Source: a virus. From it: a DNA stretch of 22,650 nucleotides. A program made the position numbers and the translations under genes. The notes beneath the pieces are model-generated. The model had not been told where the DNA came from. It saw only the letters and a program-made list of their open reading frames with translations, and made no database searches. This document shows positions 1 through 22,650 of this stretch, one piece after another. The stretch lies in IMG/VR virus record IMGVR_UViG_3300046683_000090, positions 1-22,650 of that record; one strand, given 5' to 3'. Numbering within the stretch: position 1 is the first letter of the stretch; each line of letters begins with the position of its first letter.

Positions 1-1232
1 AGGCCGTTGTCGTAGCCGGTGCGATCGGCCTGCATGATCTTGCCGGCTTGCGTTCCGAAGAACATGTCGCCGCGCGACTTGACGAAGCAGGTGGCGTCCC
101 AGCCGACAAACCGCGCCCACGCGCCGGTAGCGGCGTTGACGACGGCGCAATACTGGTTGCCGGGATTACCGCCCGGCCACGTCACGAAAATGCCGCCATA
201 CTCGGTCCAGTTCAGCATGGTCCACGACCATTGCCGCTTGGCGTTGACTTCATCACGCCACATCGGACGGATCGGTCTCGTGATGGCTGCCAGCTCCAAT
301 TCTTCCGGCGTCTTGGTGATGGCGGCGCTGATCGGAATGATGCCGTCCACCGTGATGACCAGGAGATCTCCGCCCATCTGCATGCTGCAATTCATGCCCA
401 TCGGCGCGGAGATCTGGTAACGGCCTTCCTGCCGCCAGTTCGCGGCATTGGACGGATCGCTGCCGGTGAAGATCAGGACTTCGCCAAGGTCGGTGACGAA
501 GCAGCACTTGTCGTCGATGCCGTCGCCCGCGTCCAAACTCCATGTCGCGCCAAACAGCAGCTTGCCGCCATGACTTGCCGCGCCCGCCAGCGGGATCAGA
601 TTTATCTTTCCCTGAAACGCATTGGTCGGCAGGTACCATGCGTTCATGGTTCCGCCCTCAATGAAGAAGTAGCGGTTGCGATATTTCCAGACGTAAGTGA
701 GATTGTGCCCTGTTGCGCAGGACGGCGGCGGCGTGTAGCCGGGGGCGGGGTCGACGATGATCTGGCTGCCGTTGAACGTCGTCCACGTCGTGCCGTCGAA
801 GTGCAGCACATAATCGCCCGCCTCATTGCAGACCAGCATGTGGTCGCCGCTCAGATTGGCCAGCTGCGAGGCGACGTAATTGCCGGATGTCTGACCGCTC
901 TTGACCAGCACGGGCGCGGTGGCCGTGATGTCGTACAGTTTAGTGGCGTTACCGGCAAACATCTTGACGTTATTTCCGGATTGAAACGCGAAGGTGGAAA
1001 TAACCGGTGTCGTTTCCGGCAGCGTGGCCCACAGCACGCAGCCGCCGCGCAGCGACACACCCTTGAGCGTCGGCTTCCAGTTGTCGCAGACCAGCGCCGC
1101 GCCGGGCTGCATGAAGCTCTCGTTCTCATTGAGAATGAGGCCGCGCGTCGGCGCGGGAATAGTGGTTGTCTCAAGCTGCTGCACCGGCTGCCCCTGAGCC
1201 ATGCTGCGCTTGAAGAATTGGTGCATGCTCAT
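1..1232 (-). CDS. Tail nozzle / stabilisation-like protein (3' end outside window)
   Basis: An open frame of about 410 codons runs off the left edge without a stop. It starts with an ATG that overlaps the stop of the adaptor gene upstream (ATGA), so the two are probably translationally coupled. The protein begins MSMHQFFKRSMAQG. It is rich in beta-type repeats such as DGTTWTTFNG, NRYFFIEGGTMNAWYLP and VTDLGEVLIFTGSDPS. This pattern fits beta-propeller nozzle proteins of short-tailed phages (T7 gp12 or P22 gp10 type), which sit below the adaptor ring. Its place directly after the adaptor gene supports that role. The specific family is inferred from sequence style and gene order; no catalytic motif is expected or seen. 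The C-terminus cannot be assessed. Confidence 0.7.
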   Translation of the reverse strand, partial: MSMHQFFKRSMAQGQPVQQLETTTIPAPTRGLILNENESFMQPGAALVCDNWKPTLKGVSLRGGCVLWATLPETTPVISTFAFQSGNNVKMFAGNATKLYDITATAPVLVKSGQTSGNYVASQLANLSGDHMLVCNEAGDYVLHFDGTTWTTFNGSQIIVDPAPGYTPPPSCATGHNLTYVWKYRNRYFFIEGGTMNAWYLPTNAFQGKINLIPLAGAASHGGKLLFGATWSLDAGDGIDDKCCFVTDLGEVLIFTGSDPSNAANWRQEGRYQISAPMGMNCSMQMGGDLLVITVDGIIPISAAITKTPEELELAAITRPIRPMWRDEVNAKRQWSWTMLNWTEYGGIFVTWPGGNPGNQYCAVVNAATGAWARFVGWDATCFVKSRGDMFFGTQAGKIMQADRTGYDNG

Positions 1233-1963
1233 ATCGGTATGACCGGCTCGACGGGCGTTGCAAACGGATAGGAAACACGGTTGGCGGCAGAGATCGGCTG
1301 GCGGCCGATGATGATTGGAGCCGGCGCATCGTGCGCCATGACAAGGGCCAGCGCATCGCCGTAGGAACCAAGATCCTCGGCGTAGGGCGAGCCTTTTTGC
1401 GCCTTCCACTGCCACGTCATGCCCAGCTTCATCAGGCGCTCGTCGATGATAAAGCTGTCTCCGTCATTCATAAAGCGATCGCCAAAGCCGCCGCTGGTTA
1501 GCGCTACGCAGTTCTTGCCCATGTAGGCAAATCGGACCTGATCCGTAGGGACCAGGGTCGGCGCGACGGCGATGGTGTCGCCAATGCGTATCCACTCGCC
1601 GCGCGGGTCGATGTAATTGCGCGGCGCGCGCCGGCTCATCCATTCGTCAAGATCCGGAATAAACCGCAGCGGCGTCAGCGGCGACGAATTGCGCCAGATA
1701 TTGCTGGTCAGCAGCAGCCGCTTGCAGTCGGCGGGGAGGGGCACGGAGCTGGTGCCATCGCCGTTATCCGTACCCGCCAGTGAAACAGTCTTGCGCAGCT
1801 TGACCCAGTCGCGGGTGTCGTAGGAAATGCGCTGTACCGTTTCGTTGGCCAGCGCCAGCATTTCCTGCATGGTGCGATTGCCGACGATGTTGGAAAACAC
1901 GCTGGTCGGCATCATCACGCCCACCGTCGCGCATACGTCCTGCACCACCGTCAACAGGGTCAT
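1229..1963 (-). CDS. Head-tail adaptor (tail tubular A / SU10 adaptor-like)
   Basis: This 244-residue protein starts MTLLTVVQDVCATVGV. It shows the usual adaptor layout: an N-terminal helical region with LALANETVQRISYDTRDWVKL at about residues 36-56, then a beta region containing the VPLPADCKRLL segment. Later come TPLRFIPDLDEWMSRR and a helical C-terminal part where FIIDERLMKLGMTWQWK is typical. In short-tailed phages such proteins form a dodecameric ring that joins the portal to the tail nozzle. It lies one base after the preceding gene and overlaps the following nozzle-like gene by four bases. Length and position agree with the family. I cannot tell a T7 gp11-type from a P22 gp4-type or SU10-type adaptor by eye. 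Confidence 0.75.
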   Translation of the reverse strand: MTLLTVVQDVCATVGVMMPTSVFSNIVGNRTMQEMLALANETVQRISYDTRDWVKLRKTVSLAGTDNGDGTSSVPLPADCKRLLLTSNIWRNSSPLTPLRFIPDLDEWMSRRAPRNYIDPRGEWIRIGDTIAVAPTLVPTDQVRFAYMGKNCVALTSGGFGDRFMNDGDSFIIDERLMKLGMTWQWKAQKGSPYAEDLGSYGDALALVMAHDAPAPIIIGRQPISAANRVSYPFATPVEPVIPI

Positions 1964-1964
1964 G

Positions 1965-2672
1965 TCACGCCACCTTGTCCGGGCGACATTCCGTCGCCAT
2001 TCGCACCAGCGTCTTGCGGCTGTTCTTGCCCTGCGGCGGGAAGCCGGTATGCGTGGTGACGTACTCCTTGAGCTGGTCGTCGGTCATTCCGGCAAACTCG
2101 CCTTCATCGATCTCGCGAGATTTCTTCGCCTGCATGTCCTCCTCGAGCACGGCATTGCGGGCGCGCAACGCTTCCAGCTCGGCCTGCATCTGCTTGGTGG
2201 GAGCGGAAGCCTTACCCTCCTCGATGTAGGACATCGCCGCGTTCTTCATGTCCCGGCCGCCGGGGCCAAGGTTCTTCAGCTCGGCGCCCTCGACGTCAGC
2301 CAGCGCCTCGACGGTATAGATGTTCTGCGCCTTCAGTTCCGCTCGCCGGCCGTCGGTCAAAAACCGCGCATGCTCAAGCGGCGTTCCGCTCTTGGTCTGG
2401 GCGGCGGATGCCTTGAATTGGCGGTACTGATGCGAGAAGCGTTCCGCGTAGCTCTGCTTGACCTGCTCTCCGCTGTCGGGGTCGAGCACCCAGCGTGCGA
2501 ACTCGTTGGCGGGAAATACCTTGACGTCACGCGATCCCGGCGCGCGGATTTCGCACACCTCCATGTCGTCGAAGATCGGGCGACCCTCGGCAAGCGTCTT
2601 GGCGGCGTTCTTGACGGCGAAGTATTTGAACAGGACGACAAGTACGTCGTCTGGATCTCGATAGGCGGGCAT
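1965..2672 (-). CDS. Virion-region protein with HHH-like and LEM/HeH-like segments, unknown role
   Basis: I chose the ATG at 2672 (MPAYRDPDDVL, 235 residues) because GAAGGAAGGAAA stands just upstream. The in-frame ATG at 2711 has no ribosome binding site. The protein has an N-terminal region (DDVLVVLFKYFAVKNAAKTL) and a central helix-hairpin-helix-like stretch (TVEALADVEGAELKNLGPGG, about residues 121-140). A charged coiled-coil segment (QAELEALRARNAVLEEDMQA) follows, and then a C-terminal helix-extension-helix-like unit (MTDDQLKEYVTTHTGFPP). The latter two resemble small nucleic-acid-binding or connector folds. It sits between the capsid and adaptor genes, where head-completion or head-tail connector genes are often found. 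I do not recognise a named family. A hairpin in its leader may control translation. Confidence 0.75.
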   Translation of the reverse strand: MPAYRDPDDVLVVLFKYFAVKNAAKTLAEGRPIFDDMEVCEIRAPGSRDVKVFPANEFARWVLDPDSGEQVKQSYAERFSHQYRQFKASAAQTKSGTPLEHARFLTDGRRAELKAQNIYTVEALADVEGAELKNLGPGGRDMKNAAMSYIEEGKASAPTKQMQAELEALRARNAVLEEDMQAKKSREIDEGEFAGMTDDQLKEYVTTHTGFPPQGKNSRKTLVRMATECRPDKVA

Positions 2673-2779
2673 GGATATTTCCTTCCTTCTGGTTGAGGTC
2701 CGAAGCCGCATTCGCGGAAGGAAGGCATTTTACCTACACGTCTGCGGCTCCGGGTTACTCGACAAACCTGATAGTGGGA
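2673..2779 (-). promoter_or_regulatory. Intergenic leader with a hairpin that hides the ribosome binding site
   Basis: This gap separates the capsid gene from the next gene. On the transcribed strand CCTTCCTTC (2725-2717) is a perfect 9-base complement of GAAGGAAGG (2689-2681), which is the ribosome binding site of the gene starting at 2672. A small nested stem CCGC-GAAT-GCGG lies between the arms. In RNA this would close the ribosome binding site into a hairpin about 45 bases long. The sequence match is direct; the effect on translation is inference. It could lower expression of the downstream gene relative to the abundant capsid protein. Confidence 0.55.
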
Positions 2780-3799
2780 TCAGGCCGCCGGGTTGCTGTC
2801 GTACATGCGCCAGTTGAATAGCGGATTGGTTTGCGTGAGTTCTCCCATCCACCCAATGAACTGAGCTACCGCATCCTTGTCTATGGGCATCTGTCCGCCT
2901 TCATCGAACAGCTTGTCAAAATTTCTGTTGGGATGATAACGAAGCCGGAGTGTATCCGTATTGAGCCCAAAGGTAGTGTTCGCTGGCATGTTTGATCCGA
3001 TGCCGCCATCCAACACAATCTCGGCCCGCTTTCCACCGCCGATGTATTCGAGGGCACTAAAGCCCAATTTCCCAAGTGAGGTTTCATTCTGCTGCCTCTG
3101 GATGGCAATCGTCGCTGCGTCATACGCCGCGTAGTGCTCTGGCGACATGATCAGGAGATCAGCGTAGTCGCGACCGCGCGATTGCTTGGTCATCACATAG
3201 TTGAGCATCGGTCGGATAGTGGTCGAACTGACCTGCGTGGCACCCGACAGAAAACTGTTGGCGTCATAGAGCGCCGTGCGCCAGATCGTGGCGTTGGCAC
3301 GATCGATACCGCCGTACACGCCGGTGGTGTTCGCAATCGGCACTGCGGTGGCCAGCCCCGTGATCTGCTTGTTGCCGTTGGCGGTGCCGTCCGAATAGAT
3401 ACCCTGATCCATGGCATCTTCCAGCGCCTTCTCAGCGGCTTCCAGATATGACTGGAAAACATCGAGCAGCTGTGCATCGCCTTCGTTGTTGAGGATTTCC
3501 TGCATCGACAGGATGATAGGAACGACGACCATCTTCGGATCGAAGAACGCATCGTTGAACAGATCGATCGCAGGGTTGAGCAACTGATCGTATCCGGAAT
3601 ACCACTGCGCAGAATTTTTTCCTATCTGCAATGTCTGGCGAATTTTGGGACCGGAGTAAGTCTGCCAGAGGCCTTTTCTCTTCATCACCGCCAGCAGCGC
3701 ATTGTTGTTGCTGACGAGATCCTGATAGCCGGTCGAGCGGTCCTCGACGGCCATGCTTAAAATCTGCTGATAGGCAGCATTGGTTGTTACGTTGGGCAT
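2780..3799 (-). CDS. Major capsid protein
   Basis: This 339-residue protein starts MPNVTTNAAYQQILSMAVED, with GGAGAGG shortly before the ATG. It has the look of a phage coat subunit: an N-terminal arm, FDPKMVVVPIILSMQEILNNEG, a helix (LLDVFQSYLEAAEKALEDAMD, the spine-helix position), then DGTANGNKQITGLATAVP. LLIMSPEHYAAYDAATIA and the C-terminal RLRYHPNRNFD...QFIGWMGELTQTNPLFNWRM complete it. This matches major capsid proteins of short-tailed phages of proteobacteria, probably of the HK97 fold, which self-assemble around the scaffold. Length is normal for the family and no protease domain is fused. The scaffold-like gene directly upstream supports the call. Expression should be high. Confidence 0.9.
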   Translation of the reverse strand: MPNVTTNAAYQQILSMAVEDRSTGYQDLVSNNNALLAVMKRKGLWQTYSGPKIRQTLQIGKNSAQWYSGYDQLLNPAIDLFNDAFFDPKMVVVPIILSMQEILNNEGDAQLLDVFQSYLEAAEKALEDAMDQGIYSDGTANGNKQITGLATAVPIANTTGVYGGIDRANATIWRTALYDANSFLSGATQVSSTTIRPMLNYVMTKQSRGRDYADLLIMSPEHYAAYDAATIAIQRQQNETSLGKLGFSALEYIGGGKRAEIVLDGGIGSNMPANTTFGLNTDTLRLRYHPNRNFDKLFDEGGQMPIDKDAVAQFIGWMGELTQTNPLFNWRMYDSNPAA

Positions 3800-3825
3800 A
3801 GGCGCCTCTCCACTGTGGGTTCAGA

Positions 3826-5112
3826 TCAGTGCGATCCGTTCAAACGCGACATGGCGTTCTTGACGGCATCGCGTGCGGTTGGGCTGGCTTCCTTGGTTCG
3901 CCTCGACGCTCCGTTTGAGGGAGCCACGTCGGGATAACCGTGGATGGACCTGTCCGTGGGTCGGGTCTGAGCCGGTGTGGAGCGGGTCTGAGCCGCGTGT
4001 GTGGCAGGCTGGAGCCGGTCTGCCCTTCGATACGCTGTTTCGAGATCGAACCCCAACTTGAGTTCTTGCTCGATCAGCGTCCCCAATTCGTCAAATCGCG
4101 GATGGCTGTTGGCGAATTGATCGACAGCCGATCGCGTGTAGCTGAACTGCTGCTGAGTATGCATCTGTTGCAGGGTCTGTTTCAAGCCGGTAATTTCCTG
4201 ATGCAGCGCCCCGATCTGATGCTGGGCGGCGTTCTGCTGGTTGCCCTGCTTCATCATCGCGAGCTGTTCCGGCGACTGGCTCAGGACGTAGTAGGCGATG
4301 TCGCGCAGATCCGCCTTGCCGGTGCCGTCCGGTTTCTGGATGTTCAGGTTGCTGACGATGACGTCCAGCCCGCCGATCGGATCGGCGCGCAGCTTCTGCT
4401 CCATGGTGACGTAGTTATTGAGCGCCCGCTCCAGCGTGGTGCCGTGCTTGGTCGCCATCTCGTGGTATTGCTTGATCGGCTTGAAGGCGTCGATGTCGTT
4501 CTTGTAGTAGGTGTAGGCCTTGGTGAACTCGGACTGCCAGCGGTGGACGTCGCCGCGCACGCTTTCCGGGGTGTCGGCCCAGTCGCGCCGCGCCCGCTCG
4601 GAAATCCGCACCGGCGGCTCGGCGTAGGGCGCGTGCGGCGGTAACTGCTTGTATTTGCTTGGGGCATTCTGGGCATCTTGGGCGTGCCCAACTTGCCCGG
4701 TTTGCCCGTCCTGCCGCTGCCGGGGGGCAAATTGTCCCCTTTCGTTGCGGTCGCCCTTTGCCTGCGGCTGGTCGTCGGGCCGCTTCTTGAGATCCAGCTT
4801 GGGTGTCTCCTCGGGCGGCTGGTTATGACCCAGTCTGGCCTCCGCCGGCTTGGGCGCGCCCCGCTGGGCAGGCTTAACGTCCCGCGCCTTGGCGGGGTCG
4901 TTGGCGCGGTCGAACGCCTTCTGGATGGCCTCCCGCGCGCTCTCGGAGCGGCTTTGCGGGCGGTGCTCACTGCCCTTGAGATCGCCTACCGGCGCCGTGC
5001 CGGCCTGCGGCCCTACCGGGTTAGGCTGGTTGGTGGGGTTCTGGTTGATTTGCACCTCGTTGGAGGCGGACGGTGGCGCACCGCTCGGCGGCGCAACGGT
5101 GACGTCTGACAT
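3826..5112 (-). CDS. Scaffolding-like protein
   Basis: This 428-residue protein starts MSDVTVAPPSGAPPSASNEV with GGGAGAG upstream of the ATG. About the first 165 residues are Pro, Gln, Lys and Asp rich and probably disordered (NQNPTNQPNPVGPQAG, RLGHNQPPEETPKLD). The middle is helical (RARRDWADTPESVRGDVHRW, YYKNDIDAFKPIKQYHEMA). A coiled coil follows (HQIGALHQEITGLKQTLQQM), then a helical stretch ending in a basic tail (DAVKNAMSRLNGSH). Disordered N-terminus, central helices and basic C-terminal end are typical of scaffolds that guide capsid assembly, and the gene sits directly before the capsid gene. A small internal duplication in DNA (3962-3995) encodes repeated AQTR segments. An internal virion protein is the alternative. 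Confidence 0.75.
   Translation of the reverse strand: MSDVTVAPPSGAPPSASNEVQINQNPTNQPNPVGPQAGTAPVGDLKGSEHRPQSRSESAREAIQKAFDRANDPAKARDVKPAQRGAPKPAEARLGHNQPPEETPKLDLKKRPDDQPQAKGDRNERGQFAPRQRQDGQTGQVGHAQDAQNAPSKYKQLPPHAPYAEPPVRISERARRDWADTPESVRGDVHRWQSEFTKAYTYYKNDIDAFKPIKQYHEMATKHGTTLERALNNYVTMEQKLRADPIGGLDVIVSNLNIQKPDGTGKADLRDIAYYVLSQSPEQLAMMKQGNQQNAAQHQIGALHQEITGLKQTLQQMHTQQQFSYTRSAVDQFANSHPRFDELGTLIEQELKLGFDLETAYRRADRLQPATHAAQTRSTPAQTRPTDRSIHGYPDVAPSNGASRRTKEASPTARDAVKNAMSRLNGSH
3962..3995. repeat. Short direct repeat inside the scaffold-like gene
   Basis: CGGGTCTGAGCCG occurs twice (3962-3974 and 3983-3995) at a 21-base period. This keeps the reading frame and gives a repeated AQTR-type segment in the disordered C-terminal part of the scaffold-like protein. 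It looks like a local slippage duplication. Confidence 0.7.
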
Positions 5113-5199
5113 GGAACTCTCCCTTCAGTACGGACAGACTGTCCGTACTTTTACAACTTGCACTATTTTGCGCAGTTTTGCGCACAACTTGCACTATTT
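5113..5199. repeat. Intergenic palindrome plus nested direct repeats before the scaffold-like gene
   Basis: Positions 5127-5149 form a perfect palindrome with 11-base arms (AGTACGGACAG and CTGTCCGTACT) around one central base. Beside it ACAACTTGCACTATTT occurs twice (5153-5168 and 5184-5199), and between these copies TTTTGCGCA occurs twice (5166-5174 and 5176-5184). The second long copy runs into the last codons of the 48-residue gene. The block separates the small-gene cluster from the scaffold and capsid genes, so it may be an operator, RNA processing site or attenuator. I see no convincing promoter in it. The palindrome core reappears at 14134-14150. Confidence 0.75.
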
Positions 5200-5340: not shown

Positions 5341-5341
5341 C

Positions 5342-5853: not shown

Positions 5854-5855
5854 GG

Positions 5856-7129: not shown

Positions 7130-7140
7130 GCTTCTCTCCT

Positions 7141-8620: not shown

Positions 8621-10969
8621 CTACGGCACTCCTCCGCCCGGCGGTCGTTGCGTCATTCTGAACTGCTGCGCTGCATTGCGCTCGTTCTGCCGGCGCATCA
8701 TGTCGTTGGCCCGCAGCGTGTGCTGCTGGATGGCCAAGTCCGCCTTCTGCTGCTGCGCCTTCATGTCCAGCGCGCTCTTGGCCATCGACATCTGGTGCGC
8801 CTGCGCGCTCTCTTGCATCTTCTGCTGCTGGATTGCCATGTCGGATTGATCCTCCATGTTGTCCGACTGCGCCTTCATGTTGGCGATCTGGCGCTGGTTG
8901 GCCAATTCCATCTGCTTGTGGCGGTCCTGCTGCTGCAACTGCGCCGCCTTCAGCTGCATTTCGGATTGGTCCTTCTGCTGCTGCGCCTGTATCTTCATCT
9001 GCTCGATCTGCAACGCAATCTTGCCCTGTGCCGTCGTCGGGTCGTCGCCCTTGCCCTGCTGGCCCTTGGCCTTCATCTGCATCACCAGCTCGTCAATGGC
9101 GCCGTCGAGCGACCGCCCGGCCCGGAACGGCGCGGTAGCGAATTTCAGGATCTCGCCGCAGAAGTCCGCCGTGTGCGGCTCCGCCGTGATCATCTGCGCC
9201 AGCTGCGGCAACAGCTGCCCCAGCACGCCCATGAACTCGGTGCGGCGCTGCTTCTCGCCCATCTCGTCCGTCATAATGGTGCTGTCGGTTTCGATGTCGA
9301 GCACGAATGACTTGGCGCGGTTGTCTTTCAGGAAATGCAACACCTGCTCGATCGTCGGCTGGTTCTGGATCAGCTGGATTTGCTGGATGCCCTGCTGCAA
9401 CTTGTCCTGCATCTGCTGGGTGGCTTGCTGGCGCGGGTCGTCCTGACCCGGCACCGGCAATTGCGGCGCGCCCGCCTGCGGCGGCACGCCCACCGGCGGC
9501 TGCTGTTGCTGCTGTTGCATCTGTAAGAAGATGCCCTGCATCTGCTGCTGGATCTGGGCGATCTGCTGCTGCATCATCTGCTCAGTCGGGATCTGGGTCT
9601 GCGACATCTCGATGATGGTTTCGTCTTTGAATTTCTCAGTGATTATTTCAGACGTGATCTCCACCAGATCGCGCGCCAGCCGCACCAGCTCCTGCTGCTT
9701 GTCGCGAATGCGCGTGGTGCCGTACTGCGACTTGAGCTGCTGCGCGCCCAGCGTCTCCTGCGGATCGGTGTCGCCACGCATGATGTCGGCCATGCCGGTG
9801 ATCTGGTAGATGTCGTCGATGATCTGCTTGCGCAGCATCACCAGATCGGTGATGGTCTTGCTGATGACATCGACCGGCAGCCAGATGATGACTTCCGACG
9901 TGCCGCCAAACGCCGCCCAGTTGGAAATCGGCACCAGCATGCGGCCCGGCGTCTTGGTGGAAATCGCGGCTTGGATCGCCTCCGACAACTCGCTGCCGCC
10001 CGCCGGATAAAACCCCTTCACTTCCAGTGCATCGCTCAACGCATGAATGCGGCTTGTGAGCAGATTGATCTCCTCGAGCTGGTCACGGTACTGCATGACG
10101 TCGGGGACGGGAATGAGGCTGCCGCGCTGGACCGATCCATACGCGGGTTTTGGACAGGGAAAGAAATTCTGCAAGTCGAGATGGGGATCAGCCTCATCGA
10201 GTATGTCCTCGACACCCTCGGCCACCCAGACCACACGCCGCGCGCCACGGTGCCATATTTCCCAGAACTTCGCCCGCTCCCGCGCATCCGCGCCTCCAAT
10301 GTTTTTGGCCTCGTCGTCCACCTTGAAGTCGGCTTCCTGATAGGCATCGCCACTGTACTTGCTGAACCGCTTGCGTGCTTCAGTGCGCGTTAGGTAGCTG
10401 GCGGCGGCCACCCATGTGACCTCGCGCCAGTTGCGACTTAATGAGTGTAGAAAATCATGCCGGCCCTTGAAGTCGATGCAGACGCGCTCTGAGGCGTAGG
10501 TGCCCTCGCCGGCACTCTCGTAACGGCACCACGCCACGCCCCGGTTACACATCGACAGATCGTCGCGCACCAGCAGCATCAGGTCGTTGATGCGGGTGAG
10601 ATCGAACGCCACCGTGCAGCAGCGTTCCATCACTTCACTGGCCGCCTGATACACCGGGCGCCTGTCTTTAAACTTGGGCACTACCACGGGCACCGGCGCC
10701 TTGGCGTAGATCGACGGCTTGAGCACTTCGCAGTTGGCCCAGAAGATCTGGTACTGCTTGTCCCGGCCGGTCTGCGCCAGCCGCGACATGTTGGCGAACT
10801 GCTTGTCGATCAGGTCGCAGTGGTGATGCCACTCCTCGAATGCATCCTCGGCTTCGGTGAGCAGGTTGAGCCACGCCTTGGCGCTCTCCGGTTCGACCGC
10901 AGGGTTGAACTCGTTGTCGTCGGCGCGGAGATCTTCCTCGATCGGCTTGTCGCGGCTGGTGTCGCTCAC
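8621..10969 (-). CDS. Portal protein (P22-like size) with long glutamine-rich tail
   Basis: The start is GTG at 10969, overlapping the large-terminase stop (GTGA), with GAGGAGG upstream. The 782-residue protein begins MSDTSRDKPIEEDLRADDNE. Its early part (FWANCEVLKPSIYAKAPVPV, then a helical ASEVMERCCTVAFDLTR) and its central stem (ALEVKGFYPAGGSELSEAIQ, MLRKQIIDDIYQITGMADIM) are typical of portal proteins of short-tailed phages. These form the dodecameric DNA gate at one capsid vertex. From about residue 460 the sequence becomes Gln/Met-rich and helical (QMMQQQIAQIQQQMQG, IEQMKIQAQQQKDQSEMQLK), which would build a long crown or barrel. The position after terminase supports the call. Confidence 0.92.
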   Translation of the reverse strand: MSDTSRDKPIEEDLRADDNEFNPAVEPESAKAWLNLLTEAEDAFEEWHHHCDLIDKQFANMSRLAQTGRDKQYQIFWANCEVLKPSIYAKAPVPVVVPKFKDRRPVYQAASEVMERCCTVAFDLTRINDLMLLVRDDLSMCNRGVAWCRYESAGEGTYASERVCIDFKGRHDFLHSLSRNWREVTWVAAASYLTRTEARKRFSKYSGDAYQEADFKVDDEAKNIGGADARERAKFWEIWHRGARRVVWVAEGVEDILDEADPHLDLQNFFPCPKPAYGSVQRGSLIPVPDVMQYRDQLEEINLLTSRIHALSDALEVKGFYPAGGSELSEAIQAAISTKTPGRMLVPISNWAAFGGTSEVIIWLPVDVISKTITDLVMLRKQIIDDIYQITGMADIMRGDTDPQETLGAQQLKSQYGTTRIRDKQQELVRLARDLVEITSEIITEKFKDETIIEMSQTQIPTEQMMQQQIAQIQQQMQGIFLQMQQQQQQPPVGVPPQAGAPQLPVPGQDDPRQQATQQMQDKLQQGIQQIQLIQNQPTIEQVLHFLKDNRAKSFVLDIETDSTIMTDEMGEKQRRTEFMGVLGQLLPQLAQMITAEPHTADFCGEILKFATAPFRAGRSLDGAIDELVMQMKAKGQQGKGDDPTTAQGKIALQIEQMKIQAQQQKDQSEMQLKAAQLQQQDRHKQMELANQRQIANMKAQSDNMEDQSDMAIQQQKMQESAQAHQMSMAKSALDMKAQQQKADLAIQQHTLRANDMMRRQNERNAAQQFRMTQRPPGGGVP

Positions 10970-12333
10970 AGGATGATCCCTCCTCGACGCACTTCATCGG
11001 GCGGCGGAATGCGCCAGCCCCGCTGCTCTGGCTCAGGCGGCCTGATGCGCGGCGTCGCCTTCCAGCTCATGCTCAGGTATCGGAAGCTGTCGGCCGGGTG
11101 CGAGGTCCAGTCGTGGACCGCCGACGCGCGAAACGCTTTTTTGTCGTCGTCCCACTCCCGCCTGTATTGCTCAAGCGCAGAGATGCCACCTTCTTCAGTG
11201 CGTGGATGAAACACGCATAGAGGTAGAGTTCTTCGGACAGCGTTAATCCCGTCATCAATGGACGCCATGGGGACAAGTATTGGCTTGAGGCCCATTGCAG
11301 CCATTGTCTCAACGCGGGTTCGTCCGGTTCCCCACTCCCGAATTTTGGCGTCGTGCGGGACGTAGTCGCTGCCGTGTCGCCAGCCGCGCTCTTTTTCTCG
11401 TCGGAAGATTTCATCGCGCCACCATTCCAGTCCCACGCCGGACGTCGCGTGGTGGTCGAGGATGACCAGTTGCGCGCCCTGCACCTGCCACGCCCACACC
11501 GAAGTGTCGTCACCGATGCCGAGATCCCATGCGTAGTTCACCGGGCGATCGGGCAGCGCATCGCATTCGAGGATGCGGCCCTCGTTGCGCACGCGCGCCA
11601 TCTCGACGGCGTAGTAGGCGCCAAGCGTGCTTGCGGTCCAGTCGCAGAGATATTCTTGACCGAATAAAGCAGTTCCCTGATCCTGACCGTAAATCGCGAT
11701 CAGCTCTCGCTGCGCTTCGTCAAGAGCCGCGTCTGAGAGAGCCTTGGTGTCTCTTGCGGTGAGCAGTTCTGAGAACCAGCCGGGCGATCGAGCTGAATGC
11801 TGAAAAAGCTGGAACGCATGATTGCGTCCTCGGGGAGTAGAGACGAACGCCGCCCAGCCGTCGTTCTCCTCCAAGATCGGCCGGTAATAGGCCCATGCGG
11901 CTGGATTGCTGAGGGCGTACTCACTGAACACAATGCCTGCGGTGCTGGCGCCGACGGTTGACGAGTAGGTGTCTGAACCAATGATTTGGAAGGTGGATTG
12001 TCCAAAGCCGATGAGCATTTCGTTGTCGTTGGTTTTGGTGCGGCACGCATGCGGGAAGGCTTCATCGATGCGTTTCTTTCCTGTGTGTGGATTGATGGCC
12101 GTCCAGATGACTTTGCGACCTTGAGAATATTCCGGCAGCGCGTACCAGTAATTGCCGGGACGTTGCAGCATAGCGCACGCCATCGCGTGCAGGCACACTT
12201 CATCCTTGCCGGCTCTGCGATGCCAGATGGCTACAGCTCGCTTGCCGCCGCCGCGAAGATAGTACCAGAGTTTTTCCTGATGATCGCGCGGCAGCCAGCC
12301 GTTGTGTGGCATGGGCACGCTGATCTTTGCCAT
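10966..12333 (-). CDS. Terminase large subunit
   Basis: I take the ATG at 12333 (MAKISVPMPHNGWLPRDHQE, 455 residues), 25 bases after the preceding gene; a longer frame to 12459 would overlap that gene by 100 bases. The ATPase half shows the Walker A variant HRRAGKDE (residues 38-45), Walker B GIVFSEYA (133-140) and the coupling motif STPRGR (165-170). The nuclease half shows WDLGIGDD (269-276, catalytic Asp), HDA (327-329) and HDWTSHPADSFRY (407-419). These are the conserved parts of the motor that packages DNA into proheads and cuts it. Only a weak GGAAAG precedes the start. It overlaps the portal gene by four bases. Length is normal. Confidence 0.93.
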   Translation of the reverse strand: MAKISVPMPHNGWLPRDHQEKLWYYLRGGGKRAVAIWHRRAGKDEVCLHAMACAMLQRPGNYWYALPEYSQGRKVIWTAINPHTGKKRIDEAFPHACRTKTNDNEMLIGFGQSTFQIIGSDTYSSTVGASTAGIVFSEYALSNPAAWAYYRPILEENDGWAAFVSTPRGRNHAFQLFQHSARSPGWFSELLTARDTKALSDAALDEAQRELIAIYGQDQGTALFGQEYLCDWTASTLGAYYAVEMARVRNEGRILECDALPDRPVNYAWDLGIGDDTSVWAWQVQGAQLVILDHHATSGVGLEWWRDEIFRREKERGWRHGSDYVPHDAKIREWGTGRTRVETMAAMGLKPILVPMASIDDGINAVRRTLPLCVFHPRTEEGGISALEQYRREWDDDKKAFRASAVHDWTSHPADSFRYLSMSWKATPRIRPPEPEQRGWRIPPPDEVRRGGIIL

Positions 12334-12358
12334 CGTTATATCTTTCCAAACATAACGC

Positions 12359-12622
12359 TCATTTCTTTTTGGCTTTCTCGGCTGCGATGTCGCGCAGCAG
12401 GATCTCGATGCCGCCGCTGATTTCGTTCGTCTGCTTTTGCATTGGTCGGCCCCAGCCACGATCGAGTATCATGCCGATCGCGCGCAGCTTGATGTCCGGA
12501 TTGACGCCGCCTTTTTTCGGATCGTTTGGATCTACTTCATTTGCAGTTGCCCACGCGCCCAACGCAGCAACGCACGCCGTCGTGTAGCCGCGCGCAAGAC
12601 TATCCAAGTCTATGTCCTTCAT
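12359..12622 (-). CDS. Putative terminase small subunit (87 aa)
   Basis: The ATG at 12622 gives MKDIDLDSLARGYTTACVAA; a TTG at 12643 that overlaps the upstream stop (TTGA) is an alternative start giving 94 residues, and neither has a good ribosome binding site. The segment NPDIKLRAIGMILDRGWGRP (about residues 41-60) matches the A-A-x-x-L-L-D-R-G-[WY]-G-[KR]-P pattern seen in small terminase-like and related phage DNA-binding proteins. The gene directly precedes the large terminase, the usual place for the subunit that recognises packaging DNA. The protein is short for a small terminase (often 120-200 residues), so the call is moderate. Confidence 0.6.
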   Translation of the reverse strand: MKDIDLDSLARGYTTACVAALGAWATANEVDPNDPKKGGVNPDIKLRAIGMILDRGWGRPMQKQTNEISGGIEILLRDIAAEKAKKK

Positions 12623-15222: not shown

Positions 15223-17397
15223 TTACGTCCCCGGCGACAGGATTAGACGCCGCTGGGGTCTGGATACCTTTCCATAGGTTTCGGTGATCACGCGCCCTGA
15301 CGCCATGAGCCTCCGCATGGCATCTTCAAGGTCATTTTTCCTGAACCCCAGCTGTCGAGGTTCCGGTTCGTCAACCATGACAGACGGGGCAAAGTAGATC
15401 GACTTTTTGATGTGACTGGCAATGTCACCTCTGGCATTGATCCGGCGCAGCAGGTTGACAAAGCAGCCGTCCGCGCGGGCCTCGCGCGCCAGCCGTTCCG
15501 GGTCCGTCGCGCCGTTCACCGGGAGAAACAAACCGTCCTTGTAGCGCAGTACGATTGGCCTGCCCTTGGGACCATACTGGTTCTTTTTGAACTCCAGTTC
15601 CCGCAGATCCTGATCACTGGGGTCCGCCTCCTCATCGTCCTTGATGCCCTTGAGGTACTGCCGAAACCGGAACGCGCCATGCCACGCCGTCGAGCCTGAG
15701 ATGCCGGACCCGCTCGCCAGCCCGCTCAGGCTGGGGTGGCTCAGGATAGTTACGGAACCATTAGCCGCCTTGGCCAGCGCCTGCATGTGCATGGCAAAGG
15801 CGTAGACCTGCACCCGGTTGATTTCGTCGCCGCCAAAAGCGCGCGACAGGGTATCGATCGAGATGTTCTTGGGCTTGAGGTCGCCGGCGGCCTCCAGCAG
15901 CTGCCTGTACAGGGGTGTCACTTCGACATGGTTGCCGCGCCCCATCTGCACACACAGCATGCTATCCTTGCCCAGCAACGGAAGCACCCTCAGGCCACCC
16001 GCCACCAGCGCCTTGAATGTCGTGCCGTAATGAGCCGCAATCGCCGCCAGCCGGATGTGGATTTCGTCGGCCTCGTCCTCGGCGCCCAGATAGAACGCCC
16101 CACCCTGTTCCGGCATCGAGCCCAGCCATTCCTTGCCGGTGACATGGGCCACATCCTTCATCAGCTCGATGATCGACTTGCCTGAGCCTCCCTCGCCGGA
16201 AAACAGGCCCACCTGATTGAGCGGCACCCGGTCGCGGATGGCCCATTTGCGGGTAGGCACCGGGACGTTGTCCCAGTTGGACATATCCAGCCAGTCGATC
16301 GCGACAGTGCCACCGGTAGCTGGGTCAATCCTATCCTGTTGGGTCTTGGCATATTCTTCCGTGACGTCGTTGAACCAGTCAGCCCGGAATTTCCCGGAAT
16401 TTCCCGGTTTGCGCGCCTCCTCCGCCACCTTGCCGTCCCAGTGCTTCATGGCCTGCTGCCATTTCACATGAAAGGCAGCGGGTCCGCGATCCTCGCGGTC
16501 CAGTAACTGGGTCTTGGTCAGCAGGGGGTCGCGGAGGCGGGGAGATACTTCTTCCTCATAAAGAAGGTACTTCTGGCCTTCCTTGGCCAGCTGTTCCGCA
16601 GGACCGGGCGGGATAGGGCACTCCCTGTACCAGTCGATGACGGCGGCCCAGATCAGGTCGCGCATGTACTCCTCGCGGCCGTCGGTCTGGTGGCCAAAGC
16701 CGTCGAAGGCCTCCTGCGGGCCATTGGCACCCCGCTGGTGCGCGCCGCCGGGAGCGGGGCCTGACCCCCCGTGCGCAACCACCAGCTCCTCCACGGCCGC
16801 CAGCAGCCAGCCGGGCGCCATGGCAATGTCGATCTCGTCCGGCGAGCATCCCTCCAGCCATTCGTAGGCGCGGCCGCTCTCGTGCAGGGAGGGACACAGC
16901 ATGGCGAAGCCGCCTTGGCCCCTTATGTCAACGCCCAGATCCGTCTTGCAGGTGGGGGGCGTCCAGCCGGCGGGGGCGCGGAACAGCTTCTGCAGGCCCC
17001 CGCCGCCGGTGCGCTGCTCGACGGTTTCCAGCTCCAAGCCATTGTTCTCCAGCTCCATCAGGTCGCACCACCAGTTGGCGGCGGCGGGCTTGGTGTGGGT
17101 GTCGAGGTCGACCACGAATAGGTTGGAGGACGCACGCCCGGTAATGACGCCCATGTTGGGCCGCTGCCGGTACTGGCCGGTGGGTCCATACCATGGGTCG
17201 AACTCGGCATCGGAAACCAGTACGTCCTGATACTGCGTCCATTGCTTCAGTAGAGGCCGCTTCCAGCTACCGCCTCGGGCAGGCTCGCCGGGCATGAAGG
17301 CGGGCACGATCTGGATGTCGTGGGAGCGGTACAGCCGCGCCCACTCGGCGGGCGTGGCGAACTCGGCGTCAAAGCCGTTGCCGGGATGGTTTACCAT
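15223..17397 (-). CDS. Primase-polymerase / RepA-type helicase fusion
   Basis: The ATG at 17397 (MVNHPGNGFDAEFATPAEWA) gives 724 residues and overlaps the upstream stop by seven bases; no strong ribosome binding site is seen, so coupling is likely. The N-terminal third matches the bifunctional primase-polymerase fold: FVVDLD with metal-binding Asp 97 and Asp 99, GGGGLQKLF (131-139) and VDIRGQGGF (156-164). The second half is a RecA/RepA-like ATPase: Walker A GEGGSGKS (401-408), Walker B around SIDTLSR (513-519), then TILSHPSLSG (550-559) and SGSTAW (567-572). A winged-helix-like end follows. It probably primes and unwinds DNA at the adjacent iteron region. No other polymerase is visible in the window. 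Confidence 0.88.
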   Translation of the reverse strand: MVNHPGNGFDAEFATPAEWARLYRSHDIQIVPAFMPGEPARGGSWKRPLLKQWTQYQDVLVSDAEFDPWYGPTGQYRQRPNMGVITGRASSNLFVVDLDTHTKPAAANWWCDLMELENNGLELETVEQRTGGGGLQKLFRAPAGWTPPTCKTDLGVDIRGQGGFAMLCPSLHESGRAYEWLEGCSPDEIDIAMAPGWLLAAVEELVVAHGGSGPAPGGAHQRGANGPQEAFDGFGHQTDGREEYMRDLIWAAVIDWYRECPIPPGPAEQLAKEGQKYLLYEEEVSPRLRDPLLTKTQLLDREDRGPAAFHVKWQQAMKHWDGKVAEEARKPGNSGKFRADWFNDVTEEYAKTQQDRIDPATGGTVAIDWLDMSNWDNVPVPTRKWAIRDRVPLNQVGLFSGEGGSGKSIIELMKDVAHVTGKEWLGSMPEQGGAFYLGAEDEADEIHIRLAAIAAHYGTTFKALVAGGLRVLPLLGKDSMLCVQMGRGNHVEVTPLYRQLLEAAGDLKPKNISIDTLSRAFGGDEINRVQVYAFAMHMQALAKAANGSVTILSHPSLSGLASGSGISGSTAWHGAFRFRQYLKGIKDDEEADPSDQDLRELEFKKNQYGPKGRPIVLRYKDGLFLPVNGATDPERLAREARADGCFVNLLRRINARGDIASHIKKSIYFAPSVMVDEPEPRQLGFRKNDLEDAMRRLMASGRVITETYGKVSRPQRRLILSPGT
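16383..16407. repeat. Tandem 10-base repeat in the PrimPol-helicase linker
   Basis: CCCGGAATTT is repeated 2.5 times without a gap. It encodes the PGNSGKFRA part of the linker between the primase and ATPase domains (about residues 331-339). A 10-base unit is not a multiple of three, so the copies are read in different frames. Confidence 0.75.
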
Positions 17398-17858
17398 GTG
17401 AACACCCGCGAGGCTTTCTTGAGGATGCGCTCCACGATCACCAGCTGCTTGTCGGACAGGTGCGTGTCGTAGTCGTAGCGCGCCGAGACGTCGGTGACGA
17501 AATTGACTTCCCAATCGGTCAGCACGCGCTGCGCCAGCGCCGGCTTGGCGGCAACCTGCCGCATCATGGCGATCAGGGGTGACCCGATGTCGGTGAAACC
17601 AGCGTCCGCAGCATCCGCAGCGTCCGCATGCGGATATTGCGGACTGGCTGCGGGAGCGTCCCGGTAGACCACCTTTTCCTTGTAGACGACCTTCTCGACC
17701 GGCTTGCCGTGCGCCTCTTCCATCAGCTCCGTGATGGTCATCTTGCGCTCGGCGGCCATCTTGGCAATGAAGGCGGAGGCGTTGGCGCGCTCGCCGTCGT
17801 GCTCGGAACCCAGCATGCCGATCAGCTTTAACAACCGGTTGCGGTCTGCTATATCCAT
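17391..17858 (-). CDS. DUF2786-like conserved phage protein, 155 aa
   Basis: The ATG at 17858 (MDIADRNRLLKLIGMLGSEH) is chosen over a longer frame because the LLKLIGMLGSEHDGERANAS pattern starts right there; upstream ACAGGT is only a weak site. The N-terminal helix pair (RNRLLKLIGMLGSEHDGERANAS, AFIAKMAAERKMTITELMEE) resembles DUF2786 and related short phage proteins. A linker has repeated VEKVVYKEKVVYRD and an ADAADAADAG run. The C-terminus (LTDWEVNFVTDV, then LSDKQLVIVERILKKA) matches a W-E-x-x-F and L-S-x-K-Q-x-x-x-x-x-x-I pattern frequent in alphaproteobacterial phage proteins near primases. A helper role in replication is inference. Confidence 0.75.
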   Translation of the reverse strand: MDIADRNRLLKLIGMLGSEHDGERANASAFIAKMAAERKMTITELMEEAHGKPVEKVVYKEKVVYRDAPAASPQYPHADAADAADAGFTDIGSPLIAMMRQVAAKPALAQRVLTDWEVNFVTDVSARYDYDTHLSDKQLVIVERILKKASRVFTW

Positions 17859-18720: not shown

Positions 18721-19455
18721 TTAGATCCCCCAATTGTCGAAGGCAAGCTGCCGCGCAGCAGGACTGCCCCAATAAAAGCTCTCCAGATCCGGCACGGTGA
18801 TGTCGAGGAAGAATTGAGGGTTGTCGCTGAGTGACAGAAAATTCTCGACCTTGCGCGCGATGTTCAGCAGCGCCTGTCGATGCTCGCGCACGCTCTCCAG
18901 ACGGTAGGTCTGGCACTTTTTCGGTGTACAATAAGTCAGCCGTCCTTCCTGATTGTCGGAGCTGGCATAGAGCGAGACTTGGCGCGCGTGCGGGATCTTG
19001 ATTTCGGACGGCATGCGCTCCGTGGTTTTCAGATCCACGATGATACCCTTGTCCTCCCACTTGAAGTCGAAGTAGCCGACGATCGGCAACTTCAATTCAG
19101 GCGGCTTCCATGTGATGAAGCCTTGCGTGTCGGTGGGGATGCCGTAGGGCCGCAGCTCGTCCAGTGCCTGTATCACCATGTCGCGGATGGTGGCGCGGTA
19201 CTTTTCCTTGCGATCGTCCGGCGACATCGCCGTCAGCAGGTCGTAACGCGCCAGTGCAATCTGCACGCAGTCTTTTTCCGGTGCCTCTGGATCTTTCAGG
19301 CCGTGCGCCACGCCATCCTCGACAGCCACGCCGCGATGCGCCGGCACGCCCACCGGCTGCTTGAGGCCTATGATGCGCTCCAGCACGAACATGGCAGGCG
19401 AGGCAGCAAACAGGTTGAGCGCGGATGGCGAATGCCGTTCATAGAGCGGGATCAT
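18721..19455 (-). CDS. PD-(D/E)XK nuclease (RecB/Cas4-like)
   Basis: The start at 19455 (MIPLYERHSPSALNLFAASP) has AAGGA seven bases before the ATG. The 244-residue protein has the order seen in RecB-family single-domain nucleases: RGVAVEDG (about residues 41-48), GYFDF with Asp 130, IVDLKTT with Asp 141 and Lys 143, then HARQVSLYA with Gln 159 and Tyr 163. CTPKKCQTYRL follows. Such enzymes resect or trim DNA ends in phage recombination. It overlaps the upstream RuvC-like gene by 17 bases and precedes the SSB-like gene, which supports a recombination module. Only two cysteines lie near the C-terminus, so an iron-sulphur cluster is not suggested. Confidence 0.82.
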   Translation of the reverse strand: MIPLYERHSPSALNLFAASPAMFVLERIIGLKQPVGVPAHRGVAVEDGVAHGLKDPEAPEKDCVQIALARYDLLTAMSPDDRKEKYRATIRDMVIQALDELRPYGIPTDTQGFITWKPPELKLPIVGYFDFKWEDKGIIVDLKTTERMPSEIKIPHARQVSLYASSDNQEGRLTYCTPKKCQTYRLESVREHRQALLNIARKVENFLSLSDNPQFFLDITVPDLESFYWGSPAARQLAFDNWGI

Positions 19456-19933
19456 GGTTATTCCTTTGTTGTGGTGGCAGGCCGGAGGCATAGAGCGCCA
19501 GTAACGCGGCCTCGGCGCGTCCCTGATCTTTCTTGCGCGAGAACGAGGCGGCGCAGGACGGAAACAATTGCAGGGCTAGTGCCCTGCATTGCTCCTTGCC
19601 TTCCGGGCCGCCTCTGACCTTCATGGCTTTCTTCCACTGGCCGGGCGTAATCAGCACCATGGGGATAGCCAGCAGGCTGACCACCACGCAGGCCGACGTA
19701 TAGGCGCAGCCAAACCGCCATGCCTGCTTGACGCCATCGCGCGGCATCGGACCGACACGCTCGATGGCGGCGATGTCGGGTTTCCACATTTTGATCATGG
19801 CGGACAGTTCGTGGTGGTTGATGCCGCCATCGACCACCGGCATGTCGTAAACCGCTACATGACTTTCGGCATTGGTCGAGTACACTGCCAGTGCGCCAGT
19901 CAGGCCGGGATCGATGGCAAGGATGATGGTCAT
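19439..19933 (-). CDS. RuvC-like Holliday-junction resolvase
   Basis: The ATG at 19933 gives MTIILAIDPGLTGALAVYST and has AAGGG about seven bases upstream; it also overlaps the stop of a 52-residue gene (ATGA). A TTG six bases upstream is a weaker alternative start. The 164-residue protein shows the RNase H-like catalytic set: Asp 8 in AIDPGLTGA, Glu 58 in AAIERVGPMP, and KKDQGRAEA with Asp 136 and Glu 141 near the C-terminus. This is the normal arrangement for phage RuvC homologues that cut branched DNA before packaging. It lies directly upstream of the PD-(D/E)XK nuclease gene, overlapping it by 17 bases. Confidence 0.88.
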   Translation of the reverse strand: MTIILAIDPGLTGALAVYSTNAESHVAVYDMPVVDGGINHHELSAMIKMWKPDIAAIERVGPMPRDGVKQAWRFGCAYTSACVVVSLLAIPMVLITPGQWKKAMKVRGGPEGKEQCRALALQLFPSCAASFSRKKDQGRAEAALLALYASGLPPQQRNNHDPAL

Positions 19934-20088
19934 CGCCAATCCCTTCTCGCCAGCACGCAGCGCACGTCGGCCATTTCTCTGGACATCTCGCGGATGGTGG
20001 CCGCCACGGTGCGGCAGTTCAGTTCCGACGGCATTTGCTTGATGGTGAAGGGCGAGCCAGTCATCATCACGATCAGCCAGACTTTCAT
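19930..20088 (-). CDS. Small overlapping gene, 52 aa
   Basis: A short frame MKVWLIVMMTGSPFTIKQMP to ...VLARRDWR sits exactly between two ATGA junctions: its ATG overlaps the stop of the GcrA-like gene and its stop overlaps the start of the RuvC-like gene. Double coupling of this kind makes it very likely translated. The N-terminus is hydrophobic, followed by a helix (CRTVAATIREMSREMADVRC). It may be a regulator or helper of the neighbouring nuclease genes. I do not recognise it. Confidence 0.7.
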   Translation of the reverse strand: MKVWLIVMMTGSPFTIKQMPSELNCRTVAATIREMSREMADVRCVLARRDWR

Positions 20089-20534
20089 GCCCACGTCACC
20101 CTCGGCTTGTTATAGACCCGCTCGCGGTGCTCGTAGCACCACGAACAGCCGATGTCGGTAGGCTCGCCACAGTACAGATACGGCGGGTAATCCTCGACTT
20201 GGGCCAGCGGCCATTTGCAGTCGCCGTCCCTGAGCTGGTAGATGGTCAGGCCGGCGGCTTCAATCGGTTGGTCAATCTCGATCGGCGGGATGGGTGCATC
20301 GACTGATTTGCGGATCATCTTTTCCCTCCCTTTGACAGGCTGGCGCGGTATTCCTTCCCGCGATGGTAGGCCCAGTCTGCGGGCCTTGCCGATGCAGGCG
20401 TTTTTGGTCAGCTCCAGATTGAAGTCAGCCGACATCGCCGCCGCGATCTCGCAAAACATCAATTCCGGTTTCTGCCGGTGCAGCTCGGTGAACCGCACGA
20501 TCATGTCTGTAGTCCAGATATTGCCGGTGTTCAT
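20085..20534 (-). CDS. GcrA-family regulator homologue
   Basis: The ATG at 20534 overlaps the stop of the upstream gene (ATGA). The 149-residue protein starts MNTGNIWTTDMIVRFTELHR. It shows the GcrA pattern: an N-terminal helix-turn-helix region (WTTDMIVRFTELHR...CEIAAAMSADFNLELTKNAC, then IGKARRLGLPSR at about 48-59). A basic linker follows, then a C-terminal domain with LRDGDCKWPL (101-110), YCG (121-123) and CSWCYEHRERVY (130-141). Cys 106, 122, 130 and 133 with His 136 may bind metal. In Caulobacter GcrA binds sigma-70 RNA polymerase and activates promoters containing methylated GANTC. The phage copy may redirect host transcription. No GANTC was found here. Confidence 0.85.
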   Translation of the reverse strand: MNTGNIWTTDMIVRFTELHRQKPELMFCEIAAAMSADFNLELTKNACIGKARRLGLPSREGIPRQPVKGREKMIRKSVDAPIPPIEIDQPIEAAGLTIYQLRDGDCKWPLAQVEDYPPYLYCGEPTDIGCSWCYEHRERVYNKPRVTWA

Positions 20535-22141: not shown

Positions 22142-22242
22142 CGATGATGGACATCATGGCGATCCTGAGCGGCCTGATCACGACCGGGTCCGCGATCGTG
22201 ATCTATCTGGCGATCGTGGCGCACTGGGGCTGGCCGTGGTGA
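22138..22242 (+). CDS. Tiny membrane peptide, 34 aa
   Basis: The ATG overlaps the preceding stop (ATGA) and its own TGA overlaps a GTG start of the next gene (GTGA). The product MTMMDIMAILSGLITTGSAI continues into VIYLAIVAHWGWPW and is almost one hydrophobic helix. It is probably a single-pass inner-membrane peptide. Such peptides can act in superinfection exclusion or lysis timing, but nothing specific can be assigned. Confidence 0.65.
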   Translation: MTMMDIMAILSGLITTGSAIVIYLAIVAHWGWPW

Positions 22243-22415
22243 TTGTCTACACCGTGCAGAAGGACATCCATCTCGGTTGCTACAGCGTAATCCGCTGTGA
22301 CGACCGGCAGACCGACATGTTCAGGGACATTGTGCAGACCAACATCCCGACGCTGAGAAAGGCGCTGAAGGCCTGCGAGATCTGGCAACAGCGGGAGGCA
22401 GAGAAAGATGGCTAA
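22239..22415 (+). CDS. Small protein with GTG start, 58 aa
   Basis: The start is taken as GTG at 22239, which overlaps the stop of the membrane peptide; the GTG at 22236 is an in-frame alternative. The protein reads VIVYTVQKDIHLGCYSVIRC (first residue read as Met) and ends in a charged helix (TLRKALKACEIWQQREAEKD). A much longer frame running back to 21921 is a shadow of the first gene. I do not recognise a family. Confidence 0.6.
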   Translation: MIVYTVQKDIHLGCYSVIRCDDRQTDMFRDIVQTNIPTLRKALKACEIWQQREAEKDG

Positions 22416-22650
22416 TCGATCTTCCACTGACACCAACATTGATCGACGCGGCAAGGATATGATGGGCTACCCGCTCAAGCGGCAGCTCAAGGACTATACA
22501 GACCTCGATATTGAGGCCGCGCGAGTGCTTGCGAAAGAGGCCGGCTACGAGTGGGATTGCGTCTATACCGACCCAGCGGTGACCGGGAAGCGGTTCCTGA
22601 AGTCGGCCAGGATCGTCCGACAGTTCCTGGAGGATCAAGCCATGTTGCAC
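22408..22650 (+). CDS. Unknown protein, 3' end outside window
   Basis: The ATG at 22408 has GGGAGG ten bases upstream and overlaps the preceding gene by eight bases. The visible 81 residues start MANRSSTDTNIDRRGKDMMG. They include DLDIEAARVLAKEAGYEWDC and VTGKRFLKSARIVRQFLEDQ. It is charged and mostly helical; no domain is recognised in the visible part. The frame is still open at the right edge. Confidence 0.6.
   Translation, partial: MANRSSTDTNIDRRGKDMMGYPLKRQLKDYTDLDIEAARVLAKEAGYEWDCVYTDPAVTGKRFLKSARIVRQFLEDQAMLH

Follow-up and report, generated by a model that had tools for sequence, protein, structure and literature searches.

The sequence analysed here (the window) is a linear IMG/VR record of 22,650 bases with a G+C content of 61% that, judged by its relatives, probably represents about half of a phage genome of approximately 42 kb. 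The phage is podovirus-like and known from metagenomes. On the minus strand we identified genes for a tail protein (1229..1963; phrog_6013), the major capsid protein (MCP; 2780..3799; phrog_9953), a virion structural protein in a scaffold-like position (3826..5112; phrog_25516), the portal protein (8621..10969; phrog_12082), the terminase large subunit (10966..12459; phrog_2/phrog_2472), a primase-polymerase/helicase (15223..17514; phrog_906 and phrog_1156), a 256 aa PD-(D/E)XK nuclease-superfamily protein (18721..19491; PF12705) and a 149 aa GcrA homologue (20085..20534; PF07750). The PD-(D/E)XK protein is of the usual phage recombination-exonuclease type and does not count as a sign of a GANTC nuclease. 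Pattern scans of the half genome covered by the window and by the near-identical record G001 (23 kb) found no NPPW/F/Y or CcrM-type methyltransferase. A megablast search of GenBank phages with the window sequence returned no match.

The GcrA homologue, already recognised in a sequence-only reading of the window, was confirmed by a match to PF07750 of 40.9 bits (3.5e-10; family cut-off 26.9) and by a profile match to full-length Caulobacter GcrA (8.7e-19). It is laid out as an N-terminal DNA-binding domain (residues 1-56; 20367..20534, minus strand), a linker and a C-terminal sigma-interacting domain (residues 95-142; 20109..20252, minus strand), the former supported by structure superposition and alignments and the latter by superposition on 5yix_B and sequence match. 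The modelled protein superposed (VIA-align) on 5yiu at 1.1 A over 49 residues, on 5yiv, which contains methylated DNA, at 1.0 A over 45 residues, and through its sigma-interacting domain on 5yix_B at 2.0 A over 46 residues. The recognition helix (TKNACIGKARRLGL) is conserved, preceded by approximately 7 more residues than in Caulobacter GcrA, and the sigma-interacting domain carries a CKWP...YCG...C..H pattern. Five of the seven rows of one GcrA alignment (A1) were hand-trimmed so as to begin with a methionine, in two cases in place of a valine encoded by GTG; the alignment on which the fold is based (A3) consists of exact translations. The homologue is real and has both domains of Caulobacter GcrA, which show the GcrA folds in the model. 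A tblastn search with this protein gave no match, and GcrA-bearing cultured phages were listed using a hand-written GcrA-like consensus query rather than a natural protein.

GANTC is the word methylated by CcrM in each cell cycle of alphaproteobacteria, and is also a HinfI-type word. An exact search for GAATC, GATTC, GACTC and GAGTC found none in the window (1..22650), as the sequence-only reading had claimed, and its estimate of roughly 80 expected sites at about 60% G+C agrees with the 79.2 calculated from base composition. Markov simulations gave 94, 78 and 39.5 sites at orders 1, 2 and 3, respectively, with a lowest count of 26 in 200 order-3 runs, and the maximal-order formula based on tetranucleotide content gave 39.1. 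Synonymous-codon shuffling of the main genes predicted 36.1 +/- 4.7 sites, distributed over the codon phases as 11.2, 10.1 and 14.8. This is strong under-representation of the kind that marks an avoided restriction-type palindrome (0 against 36-79). The depletion is also specific, as had been proposed: GATC occurs 196 times, words one step from GANTC are common, and the next most depleted XYNyx palindrome, CCNGG, has an observed/expected (O/E) ratio of 0.59. Avoidance in the window is total and specific, and it operates at the DNA level, across the three codon phases and the four N.

With the MCP gene as marker we found 512 IMG/VR relatives and built a tree. In 33 avoider genomes totalling 1.33 Mb we observed 95 GANTC sites against approximately 2,039 expected (O/E 0.05), with all four N depleted; the next of the 256 NNnNN patterns was TANTA at 0.70. 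Family genomes fell into 30 with O/E below 0.2 (avoiders) and 19 with O/E of 0.28-0.71 (keepers), few being intermediate. The window being a fragment, GANTC-free whole genomes are seen through its relatives: G008 (42.2 kb, with 123-b end repeats) has 0 of 38.9 expected sites, and G009, G060 and G072 have 0 of 43.9, 99.2 and 77.2, respectively. The avoiders also lack assorted 6-mer palindromes that differ between members, as expected of restriction-avoiding phages. On the MCP tree the avoidance state changed about seven times, and relatives with an 84% identical capsid protein keep GANTC at 0.65-0.71 of expected. No gene cluster was present in all avoiders and absent from keepers, the best reaching 19/32 with a rough ORF caller that can miss genes; a gene common to all avoiders can thus be set aside, and the cause points outside the phage genome. 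Avoidance also occurs in a second, unrelated lineage with different terminase, portal and capsid families (as determined for G047), in which G042 and G047 encode GcrA and hold 1/69 and 0/59 expected sites.

The sequence-only reading proposed that the phage uses the GcrA path while keeping its own DNA invisible to it. A rival explanation along these lines places the harm in methylated GANTC: phage sites, once marked by CcrM, would draw GcrA, of host or phage origin, together with sigma70 RNA polymerase, and harm would follow from mis-sited transcription, titration of the factor or a tie to the host cell cycle. GcrA is indeed enriched in avoiders (23/30 versus 5/19 keepers; Fisher 9e-4), mostly as a long-loop type; the window protein retains both domains and the recognition helix, and the unrelated G042/G047 lineage combines GcrA with near-absence of sites. 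Against this, GcrA matches are absent from the 38-43 kb of G016, G060 and G072, which also lack GANTC, and from G007, which has a single site. Conversely, sites are kept in GcrA-bearing phiCbK (27/46.6), G065 (60/83.9), G059 (27/86.7) and G041 (86/145.5), as well as in G063 and G043. GcrA changed 11 times on the MCP tree, compared with seven changes in avoidance. GcrA-using host chromosomes keep about half of their expected sites (PMC3973325), and the adenine methyltransferases of keepers would aggravate rather than relieve the problem. The survey of relatives with and without GcrA therefore shows that avoidance does not depend on it: GcrA is ruled out as the general cause, the observations of avoidance and of a GcrA homologue stand, and we regard the wider account of methylated sites as a liability as unlikely.

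Avoidance state was better predicted by an integrase or a methyltransferase of the phage's own than by GcrA. One or the other was found in 18/19 keepers and 7/30 avoiders (Fisher 8e-7), a raw association that stood at about 4.5 versus 1 of at most 7 phylogenetically independent pairs and was not significant when shared ancestry was respected. Of the four keepers without an integrase, G050, G067 and G066 each encode a DNA methyltransferase. In G050 and G067 it is of the NPPW/NPPF type, for which experiments showed the phiLM21-like members to be GANTC-specific (PMC5537653); the fourth keeper, G073, has neither gene. The only avoider with an NPPW/F/Y methyltransferase is G012, where the gene lies in a foreign 9 kb module that contains 19 of 21.7 expected sites, compared with 9 of 60.8 in the phage body by which this genome was classed as an avoider. 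Lysogeny alone fails as an explanation, given five avoiders with integrase or large serine recombinase genes (G061, G070, G072, G007 and G069) and the four keepers lacking an integrase. A phage methyltransferase alone also fails: avoider G036 carries one, PF05869 was not found over cut-off in the family genomes searched, and PF01555 occurs only in G036, G043, G048, G053 and G066, with no consistent direction. Protection, by integrase or own methyltransferase, nevertheless fits avoidance better than GcrA does.

The best explanation, which we hold with middling confidence, is selection against unmethylated GANTC, most likely through restriction by hosts in which CcrM methylates the cell's own sites. 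The hosts are probably alphaproteobacteria that keep GANTC methylated: Rhizobium, Bradyrhizobium and a Rhizobiales isolate are infected by relatives or harbour them. A first prophage scan of genome contigs found nothing, and a second yielded no more than one Rhizobiales prophage (59%) and two MAG contigs, both distant. In such cells any GANTC left unmethylated on phage DNA, as it enters or while it replicates fast, would be a liability, the likeliest danger being a putative GANTC-directed (HinfI-type) restriction common in these hosts, with CcrM giving self-protection. Lineages whose DNA is naked at every infection would have lost nearly all sites by synonymous changes, and those with a prophage phase presumably methylated by CcrM, or with an adenine methyltransferase of their own, would retain sites at host-like density. 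Phage GcrA would be a separate trait; its probable role is to bind the sigma70 RNA polymerase of the host and to act at methylated GANTC of host promoters, since the phage itself offers no GANTC site. Against the restriction reading, it asks a great deal that one GANTC restriction enzyme should be common to the hosts of about 30 phages that have diverged from each other. Virulent phages of alphaproteobacteria, among them CcrColossus (91/99) and Agrobacterium phage 7-7-1 (83/125.8), retain GANTC, so the pressure is not universal, and pelagiphage HTVC019P is a counter-example in which an integrase annotation accompanies depletion (1/50 in 30 kb).

We consider it very improbable that the phage encodes a nuclease directed at GANTC in the DNA of hosts or competitors and must itself be site-free; near-zero counts match a need for self-immunity and the PD-(D/E)XK protein offers a candidate, but that protein occurs in only 9 avoiders and 1 keeper, no gene cluster tracks avoidance, and methylation by CcrM would make the GANTC of the host resistant to a HinfI-type enzyme. 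An origin in composition, codon usage or prolonged adaptation to the composition of the host is scarcely credible, for although GANTC is also depleted about two-fold in alphaproteobacterial genomes (PMC3973325), that level is approximately 0.5 and not 0, the codon-shuffle and order-3 Markov controls gave 36-39 sites and never fewer than 23, and relatives with an 84% identical capsid protein keep their sites, which refutes it barring a higher-order mutational bias on GANTC alone.

The loss of GANTC has a close parallel in pelagiphages, for which the available text of PMC9516812 (Microbiome 2022) describes clade-wise depletion, marked in Autographivirinae, and considers an evaded defence. The near-total, clade-wise loss in phages of CcrM-bearing alphaproteobacteria, HTVC019P among these phages, is shared with the present ones, which are metagenome records and differ from these marine, AT-rich viruses in their 57-68% G+C, their capsid, portal and terminase families and, often, their GcrA; the window itself is not an Autographivirinae-type SAR11 pelagiphage, and its GenBank capsid relatives are rhizobial and others, with no pelagiphage. 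That text contains no comparison of depletion with GcrA, integrase or methyltransferase. While GANTC depletion was thus already reported, the soil clade of avoiders and the dissociation from GcrA appear to be new. phiCbK-like Caulobacter phages likewise have a GcrA homologue, for which a role in the cell-cycle transcription of the host has been considered (PMC3556154), but they are large siphophages, and it is a stretch of phiCbK that keeps its sites. phiLM21-type phages answer the same host word by methylation, with GANTC-specific methyltransferases (PMC5537653, PMC7139368) and 28 of 66.5 expected sites in phiLM21, whereas the clade of the window deletes it. The nearest cultured relative, Rhizobium phage RHph_I3_18 (MN988542; capsid protein 61.5% identical), shares the terminase and portal families of the window but has an integrase, a repressor and an NPPW methyltransferase, lacks GcrA, and holds 61 of 119.8 expected sites.

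The usual view of CcrM is that of a solitary cell-cycle methyltransferase. Tentatively, and with more doubt than the selection itself, phages of alphaproteobacteria may follow two exclusive strategies, keeping GANTC methylated, through a prophage state or their own methyltransferase, or erasing it, in hosts that would use the CcrM mark as a self/non-self signal, with CcrM as the modifying partner of a putative cutting activity in a defence. Site loss is not driven by the GcrA homologues of phages; the repeated, independent loss of CcrM sites, with methyltransferase-bearing or prophage sisters keeping theirs, suggests that the mark separates self from phage DNA.

An exact search of the 22,650 bases of the window recovered no GANTC site, as the sequence-only reading had reported, against 79 expected from base composition (the reading had supposed about 80), 78 and 39 by order-2 and order-3 Markov simulation, and 36.1 +/- 4.7 when synonymous codons were shuffled in the main genes, with all three codon phases adding to the expectation. 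The claimed specificity also held up: other XYNyx palindromes were not comparably depleted, CCNGG being the next lowest of the 16 at 0.59. The Markov and codon-shuffle expectations and the other palindromes thus show a genuine gap, specific to this word and achieved via silent changes. Separately, CCGCGG was nearly absent from the window (0/12.7 observed/expected), as were GCCGGC from the phage genome G009 (0/74) and GGCGCC from G016 (0/50); this near-absence of differing palindromes in single members is a patchy trace of different restriction pressures.

The IMG/VR record is linear, with a length of 22,650 bases, and PHROGs names were assigned for a major head protein, portal, terminase large subunit, tail protein and primase/helicase. 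The capsid protein matched 512 IMG/VR contigs. Among cultured phages its closest relative (61.5%) belongs to Rhizobium phage RHph_I3_18, whose genome encodes an integrase and a repressor; next came those of Stenotrophomonas, Microcystis, Myxococcus and Bradyrhizobium phages. A capsid-profile search of bacterial genomes gave a sole near match, a Rhizobiales locus (59%). Because of these capsid relatives and the Rhizobiales locus, the host is probably alphaproteobacterial; the records were judged from relatives to be of soil origin.

We compared near-complete relatives of the window and cultured phages. In most of the first 80 relatives GANTC stood at 0-0.1 of expectation, and the family split into 30 genomes below 0.2 of expectation (avoiders) and 19 at 0.28-0.71 (keepers). 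Exactly zero sites were found in many avoiders, among them G060 (0/99), G072 (0/77), G031 (0/70) and G008 (0/39), and 33 avoider records (1.33 Mb, including the window and two members of an unrelated lineage) held 95 sites against about 2,039 expected, or 190 against 4,078 counted on both strands. GANTC was missing across all avoiders, unlike six-base palindromes, whose absence varied by member, with none missing in more than 16 of 31. On a quick capsid tree with many weak branches, the state switched at least seven times. One avoider, G012 (IMGVR_UViG_3300036846_000450), was placed by its phage body alone (9/60.8); positions 1-9000 (loci L126 and L060) form a plasmid-like module of normal GANTC density (19/21.7) encoding, as named by eye, an S24-type regulator, ParA, ribbon-helix-helix and replication-type HTH proteins and an NPPY methyltransferase, an arrangement as in a phage-plasmid or recent recombinant. 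A 492-aa gene adjoining the portal gene in the window (7141-8619, minus strand), without a PHROGs match, belongs to a cluster that 19 of 32 avoiders share and none of the 19 keepers has, and is perhaps just a lineage marker.

Genes for a tyrosine integrase or large serine recombinase were found in 15 of the 19 keepers, compared with 5 of the 30 avoiders. The integrase-less keepers G050 and G067 carry NPPW/NPPF adenine methyltransferases and G066 an N6_N4 methyltransferase; G073 has neither integrase nor methyltransferase. NPPW/F/Y enzymes of alphaproteobacterial phages have been demonstrated to methylate GANTC (PMC5537653), and by analogy those of G050 and G067 may do so. Taken together, integrase or methyltransferase was found in 18/19 keepers as against 7/30 avoiders (Fisher 8e-7, kinship ignored); with seven phylogenetically independent pairs, on average 4.5 for and 1 against, the link with site keeping is suggestive, short of proof. 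Avoiders G007, G061, G068, G069, G072 and G012 carry small serine resolvases (215-257 aa) or large serine recombinases (605-608 aa), the large ones in G007 and G069, a hint that some of these phages may have a plasmid-like or otherwise unusual form of lysogeny.

We give an even chance to restriction-type selection against unmethylated GANTC as the driver of avoidance. If unmethylated sites were harmful to the phage, protected lineages would keep theirs, and such harm would account both for change at the DNA level and for the avoidance of other restriction palindromes. Among gene clusters compared between avoiders and keepers, no avoider-wide gene fit to be a phage GANTC nuclease was found.

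The sequence-only reading had looked to a phage-borne GcrA, and the homologue itself is well founded. The protein at 20085-20534 (minus strand) is assigned to GcrA by Pfam, and a profile search matched it to the whole of Caulobacter GcrA (8.7e-19). In the predicted structure, the N-terminal domain superposes on the DNA-binding domain of the Caulobacter protein (1.1 A across 49 residues for 5yiu, and 1.0 A across 45 for 5yiv, a structure with methylated DNA), and the C-terminal domain fits the sigma-interacting domain (2.0 A across 46 residues for 5yix), with Z-scores of 6.6-7.8 that are modest taken singly and consistent with the sequence. The DNA-binding domain is about 7 residues longer ahead of the recognition helix, a form common among avoider phages. 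Harm from methylated GANTC, read through GcrA and CcrM, would account for the enrichment of GcrA in avoiders (23/30 vs 5/19 keepers), but not for the methyltransferases of keepers or for avoiders that have no GcrA match, of which G016, G060 and G072 hold 0 GANTC and G007 holds 1; we consider it unlikely. GcrA also occurs in keepers (G065, G059, G063, G052 and G073) and in other phages that keep the site, namely the Caulobacter phage phiCbK (27/46.6), whose relatives are known to carry it (PMC3556154), G041 (86/145.5) and G046 (61/106.7). GcrA is neither necessary nor sufficient for avoidance, and the proposal that it explains avoidance is not supported as a general rule. A second, unrelated lineage, G042 and G047, has GcrA with 1/69 and 0/59 GANTC; neither genome matched the window terminase, portal or capsid, and those of G047 belong to other families. 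In G040 (IMGVR_UViG_3300027076_000001), GcrA (26742-27155) directly adjoins an NPPF-type adenine methyltransferase frame (27071 onward), judging by sequence a phage-borne GANTC reader beside a possible writer. Other or unknown causes of avoidance take the remaining weight.

Alphaproteobacterial genomes contain GANTC at roughly half the expected frequency (PMC3973325). PMC9516812 reports depletion, grouped by phylogeny, in about half of 33 pelagiphages and in a SAR11 prophage region, and suggests that an R-M system, either past or foreign, was responsible; the pelagiphage HTVC019P is likewise depleted by our count (1/50). As a kind, GANTC depletion in phages is therefore already known. New, within the literature searched, are this phage clade, the completeness of avoidance across many genomes, its repeated switches, and its comparison with GcrA, integrase and methyltransferase.
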